Shown piece by piece: positions 11,409 through 63,192 of a DNA stretch of 64,000 nt (the stretch's first letter is position 1; the number at the start of each line of letters is the position of its first letter). The stretch is taken from NCBI GenBank assembly GCA_900314925.1, contig OMXC01000003.1:62001-126000 (forward strand), read 5' to 3'. Origin of the DNA: an uncultured Bacteroidales bacterium (GTDB taxonomy: Bacteria > Bacteroidota > Bacteroidia > Bacteroidales > P3). Below the pieces are notes generated by a model. It was not told the origin of the DNA. It was given only the letters and a program-made list of their open reading frames with translations, and made no database searches. A program made the position numbers and the translations under genes.

Positions 11409-12344
11409 CTATTCAAAGGGGTTGTCCTTGCGGTCGAAGTCCGGGCGGTAGTTGTCGCGGGCCTCCAGCTCCTGCACCCATCCTTCGGTGAAGCCCAGCG
11501 CTGCGGCGCGGTCGGTCACCGTGGCGTATTCCTCCGCCGTCAGCGTGCGGTCCAGCGGTGCCGGAAGGCCCTGGCGCGGCGGGAAGTACTGGGCCATGAG
11601 CGAGAGGTGCAGCGTGAAGGGGTTGAAGTGGTCCGCCAGCCATTCGAGACATTGCAGCGAGTTGTCCGTGGCCCCTGGCAGCACCAGGTGGCGCACTATC
11701 ATGCCGCGGTAGGCGCGCCCCTCGTCGTCCACCATCAGGCCCCCGCCCACCTGCCTTTTCATCTCCCTGAGCGCCGCCGCCGCCACCTCGGGGTAGTCCG
11801 CCGCGTGGCTGTAGCGTGCCGCAAGGGCGCCGTCCATGTACTTGAGGTCGGGCAGGTAGACGTCCACCAGCCCTTCGAGGCTCCGCAGGGTCTCCACGCT
11901 CTCGTAGCCGCCGCTGTTGTACACCACCGTTGGCGTGAAGCCGCGCCGGTGCAGCTCCTCCACAAGCGCCGCCAAGCGGTCGGCATAGTGTGCGGCGGTG
12001 ACGAGCCCCAGCATGGGCTGGCTCTGGGCGGGCAGCTGCGCGAACTGTGAGGCTATCCTGTCGGCGAGAGATGCTGCCGTATGCCGCTCGCCGCTCCCCT
12101 CGCGGCCGCTGATCTGCCAGTTCTGGCAGTAGATGCACTGCAGGTTGCAGTGGGCGAAGAAGACGTTGACGATGGGGTTCAGCGGAGGCTCTTCGCCGCG
12201 GTGCACGCACACCGTGGCCACCTCCAAGTCCTCCGGGGCGCCGCAGAAACCCTGCGCCGCAGCCCTCAGTGCGCCGCATCGCCGCGGGCACAGCGTGCAG
12301 CGTCCGGTGATTGGTGAGCCGTGTTCAGCGTCCTCGTAACTCAT
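11409..12344 (-). CDS. PflX-like radical SAM protein
   Basis: A 311-residue protein. The radical SAM cluster motif CNLQCIYC (Cys66, Cys70, Cys73) binds the catalytic 4Fe-4S cluster. An N-terminal cysteine group (CTLCPRRC, then FCG; Cys16, 19, 23, 34) is typical of the PflX/YjjW-like group annotated as putative pyruvate formate-lyase activating enzymes. No glycyl-radical enzyme gene is nearby, so the true partner is unknown. The ATG is part of the first unit of an AACTCAT array that fills the gap to the next gene. Confidence 0.88.
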   Translation of the reverse strand: MSYEDAEHGSPITGRCTLCPRRCGALRAAAQGFCGAPEDLEVATVCVHRGEEPPLNPIVNVFFAHCNLQCIYCQNWQISGREGSGERHTAASLADRIASQFAQLPAQSQPMLGLVTAAHYADRLAALVEELHRRGFTPTVVYNSGGYESVETLRSLEGLVDVYLPDLKYMDGALAARYSHAADYPEVAAAALREMKRQVGGGLMVDDEGRAYRGMIVRHLVLPGATDNSLQCLEWLADHFNPFTLHLSLMAQYFPPRQGLPAPLDRTLTAEEYATVTDRAAALGFTEGWVQELEARDNYRPDFDRKDNPFE

Positions 12345-12372
12345 AACTCAAAACTCATAACTCTTAACTAAG
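12338..12372. repeat. 7-bp AACTCAT array carrying a start codon
   Basis: Five 7-bp units (AACTCAT, AACTCAA, AACTCAT, AACTCTT, AACTAAG) run from inside the first codons of the radical SAM gene to 1 nt before the stop of the small lipoprotein gene. The first unit, read on the minus strand as ATGAGTT, supplies the radical SAM start codon. Confidence 0.8.
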
Positions 12373-14657: not shown

Positions 14658-15046
14658 AATGCTACATATAACGCCGGAGCGGCTCTAAAATTGTACCGCG
14701 CGCCGCATATTTATGCCTTTGTCGGCGGCTGTGCGTGTATGTCTCTGTATATCAGTTATCTCTATTTTTACGTTGCGCCATGCCTCCTACCGCTCCCCTT
14801 CGGACCCGGTACGGAGTCCCTACGGCCGTTCTTCAGTAGTTCTTCAGTAGTTCTTCAGTAGTTCTTCAGTGTGGCACTGAAATACTACTGAAGAACTACT
14901 GAAGAACGGCCGTACCGGGTCCGTAGGGACTCCGTACCGGGTCCGGGTGAGGGGAGGGGGGCAAGGGAGTCGGAAAAAGGGGCGGAACAAAAGGGCCGTA
15001 CAATAAATATGGCGAGGTGGCGTTATAAGGGTAAAAGAGTAACAAA
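14658..15046. other. Divergent intergenic region between flippase and GH20-like genes
   Basis: This 389-nt gap contains a large 11-bp-module palindrome (14790-14958) flanked by about 130 nt on the flippase side and 90 nt on the other. No reading frame with a family match and no TAnnTTTG promoter was found, though two divergent promoters are expected here. Confidence 0.7.
14790..14958. repeat. 11-bp-module palindromic element with TTCTTCAGTAG core
   Basis: The left arm reads ACCCGGTACGG, AGTCCCTACGG, CCG, then three TTCTTCAGTAG units and a shortened fourth. After the spacer TGG the modules return inverted (CTACTGAAGAA units, then CCGTACCGGGT, CCGTAGGGACT, CCGTACCGGGT). The right arm carries one extra ACCCGGTACGG-equivalent. 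The paired arms could form a stem of about 50 bp or more. Confidence 0.9.
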
Positions 15047-27791: not shown

Positions 27792-27919
27792 AACGGCGAA
27801 TTATGCGAATTAAACGAAGCTACGCAGGTCAGACGTGCTGCGTCAGCTTTCGGGTAATTCGCAGATAATCTGTGAGATAATGGCTGCGTAGCTTCGTATA
27901 ATTCGTTTAATTCGCCGTT
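27792..27919. repeat. 128-bp composite inverted repeat overlapping a stop codon
   Basis: The outer arms pair over about 36 bp. The left arm begins AACGGCGAATTATGCGAATT and the right arm ends AATTCGTTTAATTCGCCGTT. Both run inward to GCTACGCAG and CTGCGTAGC. The interior contains a further CTGCGTCAGC that can also pair with GCTACGCAG. The right arm overlaps the last codons and stop of the DUF6266 gene. Confidence 0.85.
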
Positions 27920-28859: not shown

Positions 28860-30077
28860 GTGAACAGCAACAATAGCACGCGGATTGTGATGGCGGTGAG
28901 CAACGATTTGCTTACCGACCAGCGTGTTATGCGCCACGTCGGGGCGCTGCGCGAGGCGGGGTACGAGGTGACGACGGTGTGCCGGACGGACCTGCCGGTG
29001 CGCTGGCAGCGCGGCTGGCGCTTCTATGCGGCGTTCAACTGGCGGCTGTGGAGGAGGTTGAAGTGTGAAGTGAGAAGTGGGAAGTGTGAAGTGAGAAGTG
29101 AGAAGTGGGAAGTGAGAAGTGTGAAGTGTGAAGTGAGCGGTGATGCTACGCAGAGCAGCGTCAGCCAAAAGAACACAGAACACTCAACACAGAACACCGA
29201 AATAATTGTCTGGGCGAACGATACGGACACGCTGCTGGGCTGCTGGATGGCGGCGCGCGGACGTTGCCGCCTGGTGATGGACGCCCATGAGCTGTTCCCC
29301 GAAGTACCTGAGATACAGGACAAGCCGCTGGTGAAGTGGGTGTGGAGGACGATAGAGCGGTGGCTGATGCCCAAGTGCGACGCGCTGCTGACGGTGAGCC
29401 AGGGGATAGCCGACTACTACAAGGACAGATACGGGGTTGAGATGACGGTGGTGAGGAACCTGAGCAGTTATGAGTTGGGAGTTAGGAGTTATGAGTTAGG
29501 AGTTAGGAGTTATGAGTCGGGGGAGAAGGTTTTGCTCTATGCCGGCAAGGTGAATGTGGGGCGAGGGGTCGACTGGGCGATAGATGCGCTGGAGTTGCTG
29601 CCCGGGTGCCGCCTTGTGGTGGCCGGCGACGGCGACTTGCTGGAGGCGATGAAGGCTTACGCCGCCGAGAAGGCGTGGGCCGACCGCGTTGTGTTCACCG
29701 GGCGGCTGATGCCGGAGGAGATGGCGGCGCTGGAGGCGAAGGCCGACGTGGGCCTGGTGATGCTTGAGGACAAGGGTCTTAGCTACCACTACGCGCTGCC
29801 CAACAGGGTGGGGGCCTTCGTGCAGGCGGGGGTGCCGATGGTGGTGAGCGACCTGCCGGAGATGGCGCGCGTGGTGCGCACTTACGGTGTGGGCGAGGTG
29901 ATAGATGAGTTAGGAGTTAAGAGTTATGAGTTGAGAGTTAAGGCGTTGGCGGAGGCTGTGGAGAGGGTGCTGGCGAGGGAGTGGAAGGACGAGGACTTCG
30001 CCGCCGCGCGCGAGGATATGGATTGGAACAAAGAGAAACAAAAACTTATAAATATAGCTGTGAGCTGTAAGGTTTAA
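28860..30077 (+). CDS. GT4-like glycosyltransferase carrying four in-frame repeat insertions
   Basis: With a GTG start at 28860 it has 405 residues. The GT-B fold is clear: RIVMAVSNDLLTDQRVMRHV, VMDAHELFPEVPEI, SQGIADYY, VLLYAGKVNVGRGVDWAI, GDGDLLEAMK and GRLMPEEMAALEAKADVGLV. Between conserved blocks lie low-complexity peptides (KCEVRSG-like, NTEHSTQNTE, SYELGVR repeats, ELGVKSYELRVK) encoded by 7-bp arrays of the type otherwise found between genes. All sit where homologues have short loops, so the enzyme may remain active. ATG at 28890 and TTG/ATG-type starts further upstream are alternatives. Confidence 0.85.
   Translation: MNSNNSTRIVMAVSNDLLTDQRVMRHVGALREAGYEVTTVCRTDLPVRWQRGWRFYAAFNWRLWRRLKCEVRSGKCEVRSEKWEVRSVKCEVSGDATQSSVSQKNTEHSTQNTEIIVWANDTDTLLGCWMAARGRCRLVMDAHELFPEVPEIQDKPLVKWVWRTIERWLMPKCDALLTVSQGIADYYKDRYGVEMTVVRNLSSYELGVRSYELGVRSYESGEKVLLYAGKVNVGRGVDWAIDALELLPGCRLVVAGDGDLLEAMKAYAAEKAWADRVVFTGRLMPEEMAALEAKADVGLVMLEDKGLSYHYALPNRVGAFVQAGVPMVVSDLPEMARVVRTYGVGEVIDELGVKSYELRVKALAEAVERVLAREWKDEDFAAAREDMDWNKEKQKLINIAVSCKV
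29061..29137 (+). repeat. Coding 7-bp AAGTGAG array inside the glycosyltransferase
   Basis: Eleven 7-bp units (AAGTGTG, AAGTGAG, AAGTGGG variants) are translated as repeats of KCEVRSG. Of the three frames on this strand only the one used avoids TGA. Confidence 0.9.
29172..29199 (+). repeat. Coding 7-bp AACACAG array
   Basis: Four units (AACACAG, AACACTC, AACACAG, AACACCG) encode NTEHSTQNTE. The 34 nt before them contain GCTACGCAG and GCGTCAGC, words shared with the inverted repeat at 27.8 kb. Confidence 0.82.
29466..29521 (+). repeat. Coding 7-bp AGTTAGG array
   Basis: Eight units (AGTTATG, AGTTGGG, AGTTAGG, final AGTCGGG) encode SYELGVR repeats between VVRNLS and the GT-B strand KVLLYAG. 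Confidence 0.9.
29908..29942 (+). repeat. Third coding site of the AGTTAGG array
   Basis: Five units (AGTTAGG, AGTTAAG, AGTTATG, AGTTGAG, AGTTAAG) encode ELGVKSYELRVK between GVGEVID and ALAEAVERVL. Confidence 0.87.
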
Positions 30078-40180: not shown

Positions 40181-40184
40181 GATT

Positions 40185-40315
40185 AAGTGTTTAGTGTTAA
40201 GTGAGAAGTGTTTAGTGTTAAGTGAGAAGTGGTAAGTGTGAAGTGTGAAGTTGGCAGCCACTTACCACTTCACACTTATCACTTCACACTTATCGCTTAC
40301 CACTTCACACTTCTC
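40185..40315. repeat. Two inverted 7-bp arrays forming a large hairpin
   Basis: Ten units of the AAGTGAG type (AAGTGTT, TAGTGTT, AAGTGGT and others) are followed by a 5-nt centre (CAGCC). Eight units of the opposite orientation follow (ACTTACC, ACTTCAC, ACTTATC, GCTTACC, ACTTCTC). They fill the gap between the surface-protein stop and asd start and could fold into a stem of about 55-60 bp with mismatches. Confidence 0.92.
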
Positions 40316-40322
40316 ACAGATT

Positions 40323-43057: not shown

Positions 43058-43161
43058 GGAGTCCCTTCGGACCCCCTACGGACCCCCTTCGGCCGTTCTT
43101 CAGTGGAAGGCCGAAGGAGGGCCGTAGAGGGGCCGAAGGGGGGCCGTAGGGGGTCCGTCCC
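43058..43161. repeat. 11-bp-module palindromic element, TWCGG type
   Basis: Three plus-oriented units (AGTCCCTTCGG, ACCCCCTACGG, ACCCCCTTCGG), the centre CCGTTCTTCAGTGGAAGG, then four inverted units (CCGAAGGAGGG, CCGTAGAGGGG, CCGAAGGGGGG, CCGTAGGGGGT) and CCGTCCC. It lies in the 269-nt gap between mltG and the T9SS gene; eight T residues follow it on the plus strand. Confidence 0.92.
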
Positions 43162-52087: not shown

Positions 52088-52207
52088 ATATCAGATTGTT
52101 TTTGCCCGTTTTATGTCGTTTTGTCTGGAAGGAAAAACGTATATATAATTAATTTATTGTGTGGCCGTGCAATTTTTTTTTGCAACCCCCTAAATTCCCC
52201 ACTCCAA

Positions 52208-52249
52208 AACTCATAACTAAAAACTCATAACTCAAAACTAAAAACTCCC
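52208..52249. repeat. 7-bp AACTCAT/AACTAAA array next to a palindromic element
   Basis: Six 7-bp units (AACTCAT, AACTAAA, AACTCAT, AACTCAA, AACTAAA, AACTCCC) stop 11 nt before the 11-bp-module element. Confidence 0.82.
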
Positions 52250-52260
52250 CCCTCCTTCGC

Positions 52261-52392
52261 CCCCGGTACGGAGTCCCTACGGCATTTCTTCAGTAGTTCT
52301 TCAGTAGTTCTTCAGTGCCGCACTGAAGAACTACTGAAGAACTACTGAAGAACGGCCGTACCGGGGTCCGTAGGGGGTCCGTAGGGGAGGGG
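52261..52392. repeat. 11-bp-module palindromic element with TTCTTCAGTAG core
   Basis: CCCCGGTACGG, AGTCCCTACGG, CAT, two TTCTTCAGTAG units and TTCTTCAGTG lead to the centre CCG. Inverted copies follow (CACTGAAGAA, two CTACTGAAGAA, CGG, CCGTACCGGGG, TCCGTAGGGGG, TCCGTAGGGGA). It is the closest relative of the element at 14.8 kb. Confidence 0.92.
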
Positions 52393-52479: not shown

Positions 52480-54036
52480 ATGAAGATACATATCGTTCAG
52501 CATGACATCCTTACGCTCAAGCCGGAGGATAACCTTGAATGGATAGCCGCCGAGCTTGGCTCCGAGGCGTCGCGCGAGGCTTTGCTCACCGTCTTCCCGG
52601 CGTGCACCCTCTGCGGCACCCCGCTCTTCGCCGCCGCCGGCTACACCGACCTGCAGAAGCGGGCCCAGGCCGCCCTGCAGCGCCTGATAGAGCTCTCGGA
52701 GCACCGCGCCTTCCTCGTGGGCATGCCGCTGCAGATCCAGGACAAGGGGCTCTGCAACGCCATCGTGTTCGTACAGAACTGCGCCATACGCGGCGTGGTG
52801 ACCAAGAAGTACCTCTCCACCGACGAGCAGCGCTGCTTCGTGCGCGGCGAGGGTGTGCAGGTCATCGACTTCCACGACCAGCGTCTGGCCATAGGCTTCT
52901 ACGAGGACCTCAAGGAGCTCTCCAAGGGACATGTGGAACAGCCCGACATGGTGGTGTGCTGCGGCGGTCAGGTATTTGACTATCAGCGCCCTTACCGCAC
53001 GCGCTACCGCATGAGCAAGATTGTCGAGACCCTCAACGCGGGCCTCGTCTACGTCAACCGCACCGGCGGCGAAGGCCCCTATCTCTTCGCCGGCGGCTCC
53101 ATGGCCATGAACGCCGCGGGCGGCGTGCTCTGCCAGATGCCTTACTTCGAGCAGGGGTGCTGCACAGTGGACATGCAGCAGATAGAGACCGTCGAGGACG
53201 AGAAGCCAGAGGCCGTGGAGCTCGTCTACAAGGCCCTGGTCTGCGGCCTGCACGACTACTTCGCCAAGAATGGCCTGCGGCGCGCCGTGCTGGGCCTGAG
53301 CGGCGGCATCGATTCGGCCCTCGTGGCCACGCTCGCCGTCGACGCCCTCGGGGCCGAGAATGTGCACGGCCTGCTGATGCCCAGCCAGTACAGCACCGAC
53401 CACTCCGTGAAGGACGCCGAGGACCTGGCCCACAACCTCGGCATGAGCTACGACATAGTGCCCATCAAGCCGCTGTTCGACCAGTTCCGCGAGAGTCTCA
53501 AGCCTGTCTTCGGCGAACGCGCCGAGGACGTCACCGAGGAGAACCTGCAGGCCCGCATACGCGGCACCCTGGTGATGAGCTACGCCAACAAGTTCGGCGC
53601 CCTGGCGCTGAACACCACCAACCGCTCCGAGGCCGCCATGGGCTACGGCACCCTCTACGGCGACTCCTGCGGCGCCCTGGCGGTGATCGGCGACCTCTAC
53701 AAGACCGAGGTGTACCAGCTCAGCGAGTGGATCAATCGCGACGGCATCCGCATACCGCAGAACAGCATCACTAAGGCCCCCAGCGCCGAGCTGCGCCCCG
53801 GCCAGAAGGACAGCGACTCGCTGCCCGACTACGCGGTGCTCGACGCCATACTCGGCCTGTTCCTCGACGAGGACCTCTGCGAGGACGAGATCGTGGACGA
53901 AGGCTACGACCGCGAGGTGGTGCAGAGGGTGCTGCGCGGCGTGGCGCGCAACGAATGGAAACGCCTCCAGTTTGCGCCGCAGCTCAAGGTGGCGCCCGTC
54001 AGCTTCGGCCTCGACCGCCGCTGGCCCATCAGCTGA
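52480..54036 (+). CDS. nadE: NAD+ synthetase with degenerate glutaminase domain
   Basis: A 518-residue two-domain protein. The C-terminal synthetase domain is intact: GLSGGIDSALVATLAVDALG (P-loop, ~272), LLMPSQYSTDHSVKDAEDLA and NTTNRSEAAMGYGTLYGDSC. The N-terminal nitrilase-type glutaminase domain keeps the fold (VGMPLQIQ, TKKYLSTDEQR, NRTGGEGPYLFAGGSMAMNA). However, the motif usually FPEL reads FPAC (Ala41), and the usual ICEDLW reads GFYEDLK (Tyr141), losing both the catalytic Glu and Cys. It probably relies on free ammonia. The start at 52480 fits MKIHIVQHD. Confidence 0.93.
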   Translation: MKIHIVQHDILTLKPEDNLEWIAAELGSEASREALLTVFPACTLCGTPLFAAAGYTDLQKRAQAALQRLIELSEHRAFLVGMPLQIQDKGLCNAIVFVQNCAIRGVVTKKYLSTDEQRCFVRGEGVQVIDFHDQRLAIGFYEDLKELSKGHVEQPDMVVCCGGQVFDYQRPYRTRYRMSKIVETLNAGLVYVNRTGGEGPYLFAGGSMAMNAAGGVLCQMPYFEQGCCTVDMQQIETVEDEKPEAVELVYKALVCGLHDYFAKNGLRRAVLGLSGGIDSALVATLAVDALGAENVHGLLMPSQYSTDHSVKDAEDLAHNLGMSYDIVPIKPLFDQFRESLKPVFGERAEDVTEENLQARIRGTLVMSYANKFGALALNTTNRSEAAMGYGTLYGDSCGALAVIGDLYKTEVYQLSEWINRDGIRIPQNSITKAPSAELRPGQKDSDSLPDYAVLDAILGLFLDEDLCEDEIVDEGYDREVVQRVLRGVARNEWKRLQFAPQLKVAPVSFGLDRRWPIS

Positions 54037-54077
54037 GAGGTGGGAAGTGGGAAGTGAGAAGTGTGAAGTGAGAAGTG
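54036..54077. repeat. 7-bp AGAAGTG array directly after nadE stop
   Basis: Six units (AGAGGTG, GGAAGTG twice, AGAAGTG, TGAAGTG, AGAAGTG) begin on the last base of the nadE stop codon. Confidence 0.85.
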
Positions 54078-54091
54078 GAATGTAAAAAATG

Positions 54092-63093: not shown

Positions 63094-63192
63094 GTCGGTA
63101 CGGCCCCCCTTCGGCCCCCCTACGGCCCTTCTACGGCCTTCCACTGAAGAACGGCCGAAGGGGGGCCGAAGAGGGGCCGTAGGGGCTCCGTA
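63094..63192. repeat. 11-bp-module palindromic element, TWCGG type
   Basis: GTCGGTACGG, CCCCCCTTCGG, CCCCCCTACGG and CCCTTCTACGG lead to the centre CCTTCCACTGAAGAACGG. The inverted units CCGAAGGGGGG, CCGAAGAGGGG and CCGTAGGGGCT with CCGTAC follow. The centre is the reverse complement of that in the 43.1-kb copy. Confidence 0.92.

Follow-up and report, generated by a model that had tools for sequence, protein, structure and literature searches.

Tandem arrays of 7-bp and 8-bp units were found in loops of many genes in a genus of uncultured Bacteroidales, and identical loops were filled in different species with unrelated units. The glycosyltransferase gene in the window (the whole stretch of 64,000 nucleotides that was analyzed) is one case. 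We consider it likely that these inserts are translated copies of repeat-armed elements otherwise located between genes, which are tolerated when open and in frame while other copies are purged. The window belongs to a draft genome of 2.4 Mb in 27 contigs, and its close relatives are uncultured Bacteroidales genomes, chiefly from the ruminant rumen or gut. The repeat survey covered 464 kb sampled from the window's genome together with the loci of relatives. Since the data throughout are draft metagenome-assembled genomes, copy numbers may be collapsed.

The host gene (28860-30077, plus strand) starts with a GTG at 28860 or an ATG at 28890 and has its stop at 30077. The GT4-type Pfam domains PF13692, PF13439, and PF00534 scored over the cut-off. 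The AF2 model, built with 56 orthologues, had a mean pLDDT of 88.6 and a pTM of 0.86 and displayed the two-domain GT-B fold; the best PDB matches in a Foldseek search with this model were the GT-B enzymes MshA/BshA/PimA. The gene was matched in 96 of 99 relatives, and the dN/dS of its core relative to five relatives was 0.09-0.25, which places it under purifying selection. It is a functional GT4-type glycosyltransferase, with retaining glycosyl transfer as its predicted activity. A pseudogene, named in an earlier note on this DNA as an outcome that would speak against its reading, was rejected in view of these dN/dS values and of all inserts being in frame. An assembly artefact was rejected on the same two observations and the many independent assemblies.

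The earlier note had described four 7-bp arrays within a single GT4-like gene. TRF placed all four of them in the host gene, all on the plus strand, and Pfam confirmed the GT4 assignment. Three of the four arrays were 7-bp arrays with an equal or better TRF score at 21 bp, or with variant units. Array 1 (29059-29137; AAGTGNG x 11, TRF periods 7 bp and 21 bp) lies at site 1, where it forms the G-rich 5' arm of a composite insert and encodes the peptide KCEVRSGKCEVRSEKWEVRSVKCEV. It is followed by a spacer (29138-29169) containing the imperfect hairpin GCTACGCAG-AG-CAGCGTCAGC, and by array 2 (29170-29201; AGAACAC x 4.6, TRF), which forms the C-rich 3' arm and encodes KNTEHSTQNTE. The spacer of this composite reads GCTACGCAGAGCAGCGTCAGC and its arms are poorly matched, the complementarity of arrays 1 and 2 being only partial with an RNA fold z-score of 0.42. 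Arrays 1 and 2 look like the paired arms of a single composite insert, set apart by a spacer, and not like unrelated events. For the inserts in the window itself, RNA folding did not support a stable mRNA hairpin (z-scores 0.42 and -0.53).

Array 3 (29466-29521; AGTTATG/AGTTAGG x 8, TRF periods 7 and 21 bp with 21-bp phasing) is located at site 3, in the interdomain linker after VVRN, and encodes SYELGVRSYELGVRSYES; relative L042 has a similar array. Array 4 (29907-29942; AGTTAAG/AGTTATG x 5, TRF) is located at site 4, in the loop preceding the helix ALAEAV, and encodes LGVKSYELRVK. The site-4 loop was found with other arrays in L044, L045, L049, L057, L064, L065, and L079. The site-1 insert (residues ~74-113) was modelled as coil with a pLDDT of 43-54, the site-3 loop (~201-222) as coil with a pLDDT of ~65, and site 4 (~348-356) as coil. 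In the confident GT-B model the inserts thus sit in coil between secondary-structure elements, which agrees with their previous placement between conserved GT-B blocks. The term domesticated, which had been applied to the arrays, implies a function and is not supported here: the loops are predicted to be disordered or of low confidence, with units free to differ between species and no sign of benefit.

The insertions were confined neither to this gene nor to direct arrays; inverted-pair and palindromic forms occurred at the same loops, and many genes were affected. Array hosts in the sampled 464 kb included a type IA topoisomerase, MnmA, PrmC, and RsmE, and HflX was also a host among relatives. 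The relatives carried 27 arrays at columns 155-165 and 8 at columns 294-296 of the glycosyltransferase, 17 at positions 79-84 of a 168-aa protein, and 13 at positions 211-214 of a second glycosyltransferase. At site 3, DNA with a 7/8-bp period or an inverted arrangement was seen in 25 of 40 core-clade orthologues, and in 6 of the 38 orthologues that are more distant, with units varying from species to species. In L043, L051, and L071 long palindromes replaced the arrays at site 3; the palindromic element CTCACCCCCGGCCCCTCTCC..GGAGAGGGGC..GGTGAG was found in frame there and also in MnmA of L156. Judged by eye, ~60 bp past the site-3 loop of L039 differed from the window gene to an unusual degree and resembled L043, which suggests that local recombination occurred and that its breakpoint was close to the repeat.

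Array-free alleles, which the earlier note had suggested looking for across strain genomes, exist in close relatives. Site 1 had the short ancestral form, with array 1 absent, in L042 (88% protein identity), L039, and L043, and relatives without the insert were 85-88% identical in protein sequence. In L041 the empty site 1 contained the array-like short word GTGAAGTGAGAAG. The topoisomerase of the window's genome carries a two-armed insert of 30 aa (AGTTAAG..GCTGACGCGACC..CATAACT). This insert was absent from orthologue L186, in which two matching segments were 94-97% identical, and from more than 10 further species; all had only a short GEVEKV-type loop. Because close relatives lack them, the site-1 and topoisomerase inserts are probably recent gains. 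In MnmA, 11 of 26 readable species retained a 3-aa turn, and in ~10 others of the 26 its place was taken by 7-mer/8-mer arrays or a CTCACCCC-type palindrome.

The arrays are real and far above chance. Codon shuffling within all predicted genes (1.68 Mb) produced not a single array with a period of 7, 8, or 11, compared to 112, 17, and 2 in the real genes. About half of the clearly placed 7-mer arrays in the survey were genic (112 in genes vs. 102 intergenic). Genome-wide, a 19-nt AGTTATG-type pattern gave 191 matches vs. 3 for the reversed control. Arrays of the AGTTATG type were patchy in Bacteroidales, with a match in 65 of 198 genomes and ~90-400 matches in a few; genomes G127, G144, G202, and G205 were singled out at the level of the order.

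The array types of the gene had been described as shared with non-coding gaps elsewhere in the window, and counterparts were indeed located. TRF identified a CTCATAA array, the reverse complement of TTATGAG, at 12333-12369, a CAAAACT/AACTCAT array of the unit family of arrays 3 and 4 at 52205-52247, both intergenic, and a GTGAGAA/AAGTGGG array of the unit family of array 1 at a gene end at 54034-54078. The latter (G000:C6:116034-116077) matches array 1. At a gene edge (40183-40317) we found a paired element with a TTAAGTG array, a short spacer, and an inverted CACTTA array (inverted score 36).

Intergenic 7-mer arrays occupied short gaps of tandem genes, at a median of 11 bp past the upstream end and 22 bp before the start. 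They were not enriched between convergent genes, and a terminator role was rejected. A long intergenic inverted repeat at 27797-27914, indexed also by position 27819, consists of 9-bp units (CGAATTAAA / TTCGTATAA) around GCTACGCAG..CTGCGTCAGC, and its centre resembles the spacer of the glycosyltransferase insert 1.3 kb downstream. Inverted pairs of 11-bp arrays (GTTCTTCAGTA and CCCTTCGGCCC types) were located at 14828-14945, 43063-43158, 52286-52387, and 63099-63185. In the survey the 11-bp arrays were intergenic in 141 cases vs. 2 genic, and ~30% of the intergenic regions between divergent genes contained them. In most pairs the C-rich arm came first, the opposite order to that of the 7-mers.

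As the gene caller was a simple home-made one based on codon usage, in-gene status was rechecked by a frame-blind test. For each array, the 180 bp on either side were translated in every frame and matched against the proteins of other genomes, and arrays were counted if the two flanks matched neighbouring parts of one protein. All 99 of the 7-mer arrays and all 12 of the 8-mer arrays were in frame and stop-free (111/111), related species and neighbouring arms of one element being counted separately, so that the arrays are partly non-independent. Together with the absence of the site-1 insert in relatives, this supports the earlier proposal that an array-generating process also strikes genes and that only open, in-frame versions are kept. 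To judge by frame conservation alone, the inserts would be translated.

That only one frame of the units lacks stop codons had been put forward as well. In the actual DNA, arrays 1, 3, and 4 were free of stops in the gene frame alone and array 2 in all three frames. The argument failed for homogeneous arrays of AGTTAGG, AGTTATG, AGTTAAG, AAGTGAG, and AAGTGTG, which have a stop in every frame because a 7-bp unit gives the identical cycle of 7 codons in each frame, 7 and 3 having no common factor. Openness thus depends on which unit variant occupies which 21-bp phase. Shuffling the order of units left the frame open in 2% of cases for array 1, 9.8% for array 3, and 20% for array 4. A change in unit number, previously regarded as frame-neutral in sets of three, is so in threes only and must also preserve the stop-free phase. 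In the survey, in-gene 7-mer arrays had an identity of 0.870 at lag 21 vs. 0.846 at lag 7, while intergenic arrays decayed from 0.820 at lag 7 to 0.764 at lag 21. Stop-containing units were found in 27 of 112 arrays in the sense direction within genes, 58 of 112 antisense, and 74% per strand between genes, the low sense count being partly true by definition since ORFs lack stops.

Many elements were two-armed, with one array followed, after a spacer, by another in reverse-complement form; single arms were also common. Arms were typically 29-35 nt (~32 nt) and spacers often 14-21 nt. At a low detection threshold the lengths of in-gene arrays were bimodal: besides a background of short arrays, which codon-shuffled genes showed as well, a second mode lay at 31-33 nt, and few arrays measured 22-27 nt. 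Codon-shuffled genes gave no array longer than 27 nt. Relative to a null made from the flanks of other arrays, inverted pairing exceeded the 95th percentile in 40% of the relatives' in-gene 7-mers. The G-rich arm came first in 43 of 45 7-mer pairs, and this order is a real polarity because an inverted pair is identical from either strand. The motif GCTGACGC or its complement was present in 7 of 63 spacers (~11%) vs. 0.17 expected. It marks a subset of spacers only, is itself mostly ordinary coding sequence, and was rejected as a universal core. De novo k-mer enrichment adjoining the arrays yielded only words of the flanking genes for 7/8-mers.

Of the unit pairs from different genes of the same genome, 30% agreed to 6/7 or better vs. 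10.7% when permuted within genes (p 0.0005). For arrays that share a site but belong to different genomes the figure was 15%. Units are therefore closer within a genome than within a site, which suggests copying within the genome in preference to independent local slippage, a shared mutational bias being possible. The topoisomerase insert matched 59 places in the window's genome, including arrays 3 and 4 of the glycosyltransferase gene. The best other genome copy of array 1 was 94% identical over 69 nt (G000:C13:49119-49187); this was rejected as proof of copying because, by our own estimate, two independent AAGTGNG arrays are ~90% alike anyway.

No transposase or target-site duplication linked to the heptad elements was identified. 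The sole IS200-type Y1 transposase gene in the genome, at L200 (an open frame of 152 aa), was flanked by GACCCCTACGGGGTCG and AACCCCATAGGGGTTT repeats and not by heptad elements; one flank holds GACCCCTACGGGGTCG units in tandem and the opposite flank AACCCCATAGGGGTTTCAT units. The gene and its repeats are a candidate for a separate REP-transposase pair. Since the repeats beside this sole Y1 gene are of a different kind, IS200-type mobilisation of the heptad elements was rejected.

In the reading that we favour, a full element would consist of ~32 nt of tandem 7-/8-bp units and a similarly long reverse-complement array, with a spacer of ~16-20 nt between the two. Such DNA would repeatedly arise at, or be copied into, unconstrained positions, i.e., gene gaps and the surface loops of proteins. 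Copies that keep the frame and lack stops would be tolerated as neutral disordered loop extensions, while frame-breaking or stop-containing copies would be purged by selection. The in-frame status, the recurrence at the same loops, the empty sites, the genome-specific unit families, the arm length, and the purifying selection were all observed. The elements would have spread by within-genome copying, transposition-like or template-directed, and not by local slippage only, and the loop inserts would be without benefit. Against copied elements stand the weakly pairing arms of the window's composite (RNA fold z 0.42) and the many single-armed arrays. More tentatively, the architecture itself could define a mobile or self-copying DNA, with the G-rich arm first, its reverse complement second, a short spacer, and arms of ~32 nt that hold any 7-/8-bp unit and are rewritten to one house unit genome-wide. 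Here the agent would be an enzyme or hairpin-templated replication error, and the same loops would be refilled across the genus.

Array-like words in some empty sites, such as the seed-like GTGAAGTGAGAAG at site 1 of L041, make local expansion possible, and pure slippage could in principle account for genic and intergenic arrays alike. A chance duplication of a heptamer would then grow by slipped-strand mispairing, with shared units reflecting mutational bias. This agrees with heptamers being the commonest class among longer bacterial simple repeats, as relayed from Mrazek (2007) in PMC4679880 and PMC4692102. We find it unlikely, as slippage alone does not produce inverted arms with a spacer, array lengths peak at 31-33 nt and are seldom 22-27 nt, unit identity tracks the genome and not the site, and a complete two-armed topoisomerase insert is set against none in a very close orthologue.

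Surface-sugar enzymes are classic phase-variable genes. A change of one unit shifts the frame, 7 not being a multiple of 3, and the arrays could thus be contingency loci in which such changes toggle the enzyme. This is most improbable given that the hosts include housekeeping enzymes, that 0 of 111 arrays were in an off state, that similar arrays occupy non-coding gaps, and that the arrays are imperfect (mean identity ~0.85 at lag 7), which lowers slippage. It is likewise very unlikely that heptad-like peptides were selected as linkers or binding segments with the DNA repeat as a by-product. The periodic or inverted DNA at site 3 in 25 of 40 core-clade orthologues would fit such a role, but the peptides are unlike one another in sequence (SYELGVR, RRVESGE, LPTTHYP, SSLITHH, and others), the arrays are frequent in intergenic DNA, the loops are modelled at low confidence, and insert-free orthologues are conserved in the remainder of the protein.

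Altogether, non-coding repeat DNA appears to overwrite protein loops repeatedly and independently, in housekeeping enzymes and genus-wide, and both empty and filled alleles exist. One noisy DNA process would rewrite protein parts in uncultured rumen bacteria, with selection removing the harmful versions. This makes the origin of in-frame insertions in proteins, and the spread of heptamers by slippage vs. copying, testable questions. It also calls for caution, as low-complexity heptad peptides in the predicted proteins of these bacteria mirror DNA repeats and not protein function.

Searching the literature for a like phenomenon in Bacteroidales turned up nothing specific, and the papers searched gave no account of the combination of variable 7/8-bp arms, this arm length, a roughly half-genic location, and recurrence at the same loops. 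Heptanucleotide repeats are known as TAACTGA in Beggiatoaceae and others, including some Bacteroidetes (PMC4679880), and as GGGNATC in Xanthomonas and Nostoc (PMC4692102). Like these and the cyanobacterial STRRs, the arrays described here are abundant, degenerate 7-bp tandem arrays dispersed genome-wide. However, the known families are built from a single conserved unit or a few in each lineage, are mostly intergenic, and are rare or under-represented in genes, whereas about half of the clearly placed 7-mer arrays here lie in ORFs, the units are variable, and some of the arrays form inverted pairs. As cited in PMC4679880, Mrazek et al. (2007) found 7 bp to be the most abundant unit length of long simple repeats, and polymerase slippage was proposed as the cause of heptamer repeats (via PMC4679880 and PMC4692102). 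In that work, as far as it is cited, coding repeats had multiple-of-three units, while the main coding units here are 7/8 bp.

Intragenic REPs, tagged GTAG or CGTC, are small palindromes in ORF loops and linkers for which the authors proposed neutral loop insertion; more than half of the inserts are dimers or groups encoding 20-30 aa, and the stems are 5-13 bp with a GTAG or CGTC end tag (PMC3733652). The present elements resemble them as short palindromic inserts in protein loops, but differ in that no linked transposase was found and no REP-type stem or end tag was established. Some spacers hold GCGTCAGC(CA), which includes CGTC, yet this 8-mer occurred in 7 of 63 and was internal, not terminal. 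The one Y1_Tnp gene in the genome was not flanked by the heptad repeat, unlike the arrangement in REP/RAYT systems. Rickettsia palindromic elements (Ogata et al., 2000) are, as reviewed in PMC2229807, palindromic families of 105-146 bp with family-specific sequence, and the product of a gmk gene bearing one is translated and active. The likeness lies in the in-frame inserts in genes for conserved proteins together with intergenic copies. In contrast to them, the arms here are tandem 7/8-bp units of ~32 nt, variable between species and often single, and inverted arms were found with only a partially shared spacer motif in place of a 100-150 bp family consensus with terminal inverted repeats. 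The closest precedents are thus the Rickettsia palindromic elements and the intragenic REPs, both of which are in-frame palindromes in loops of conserved proteins.
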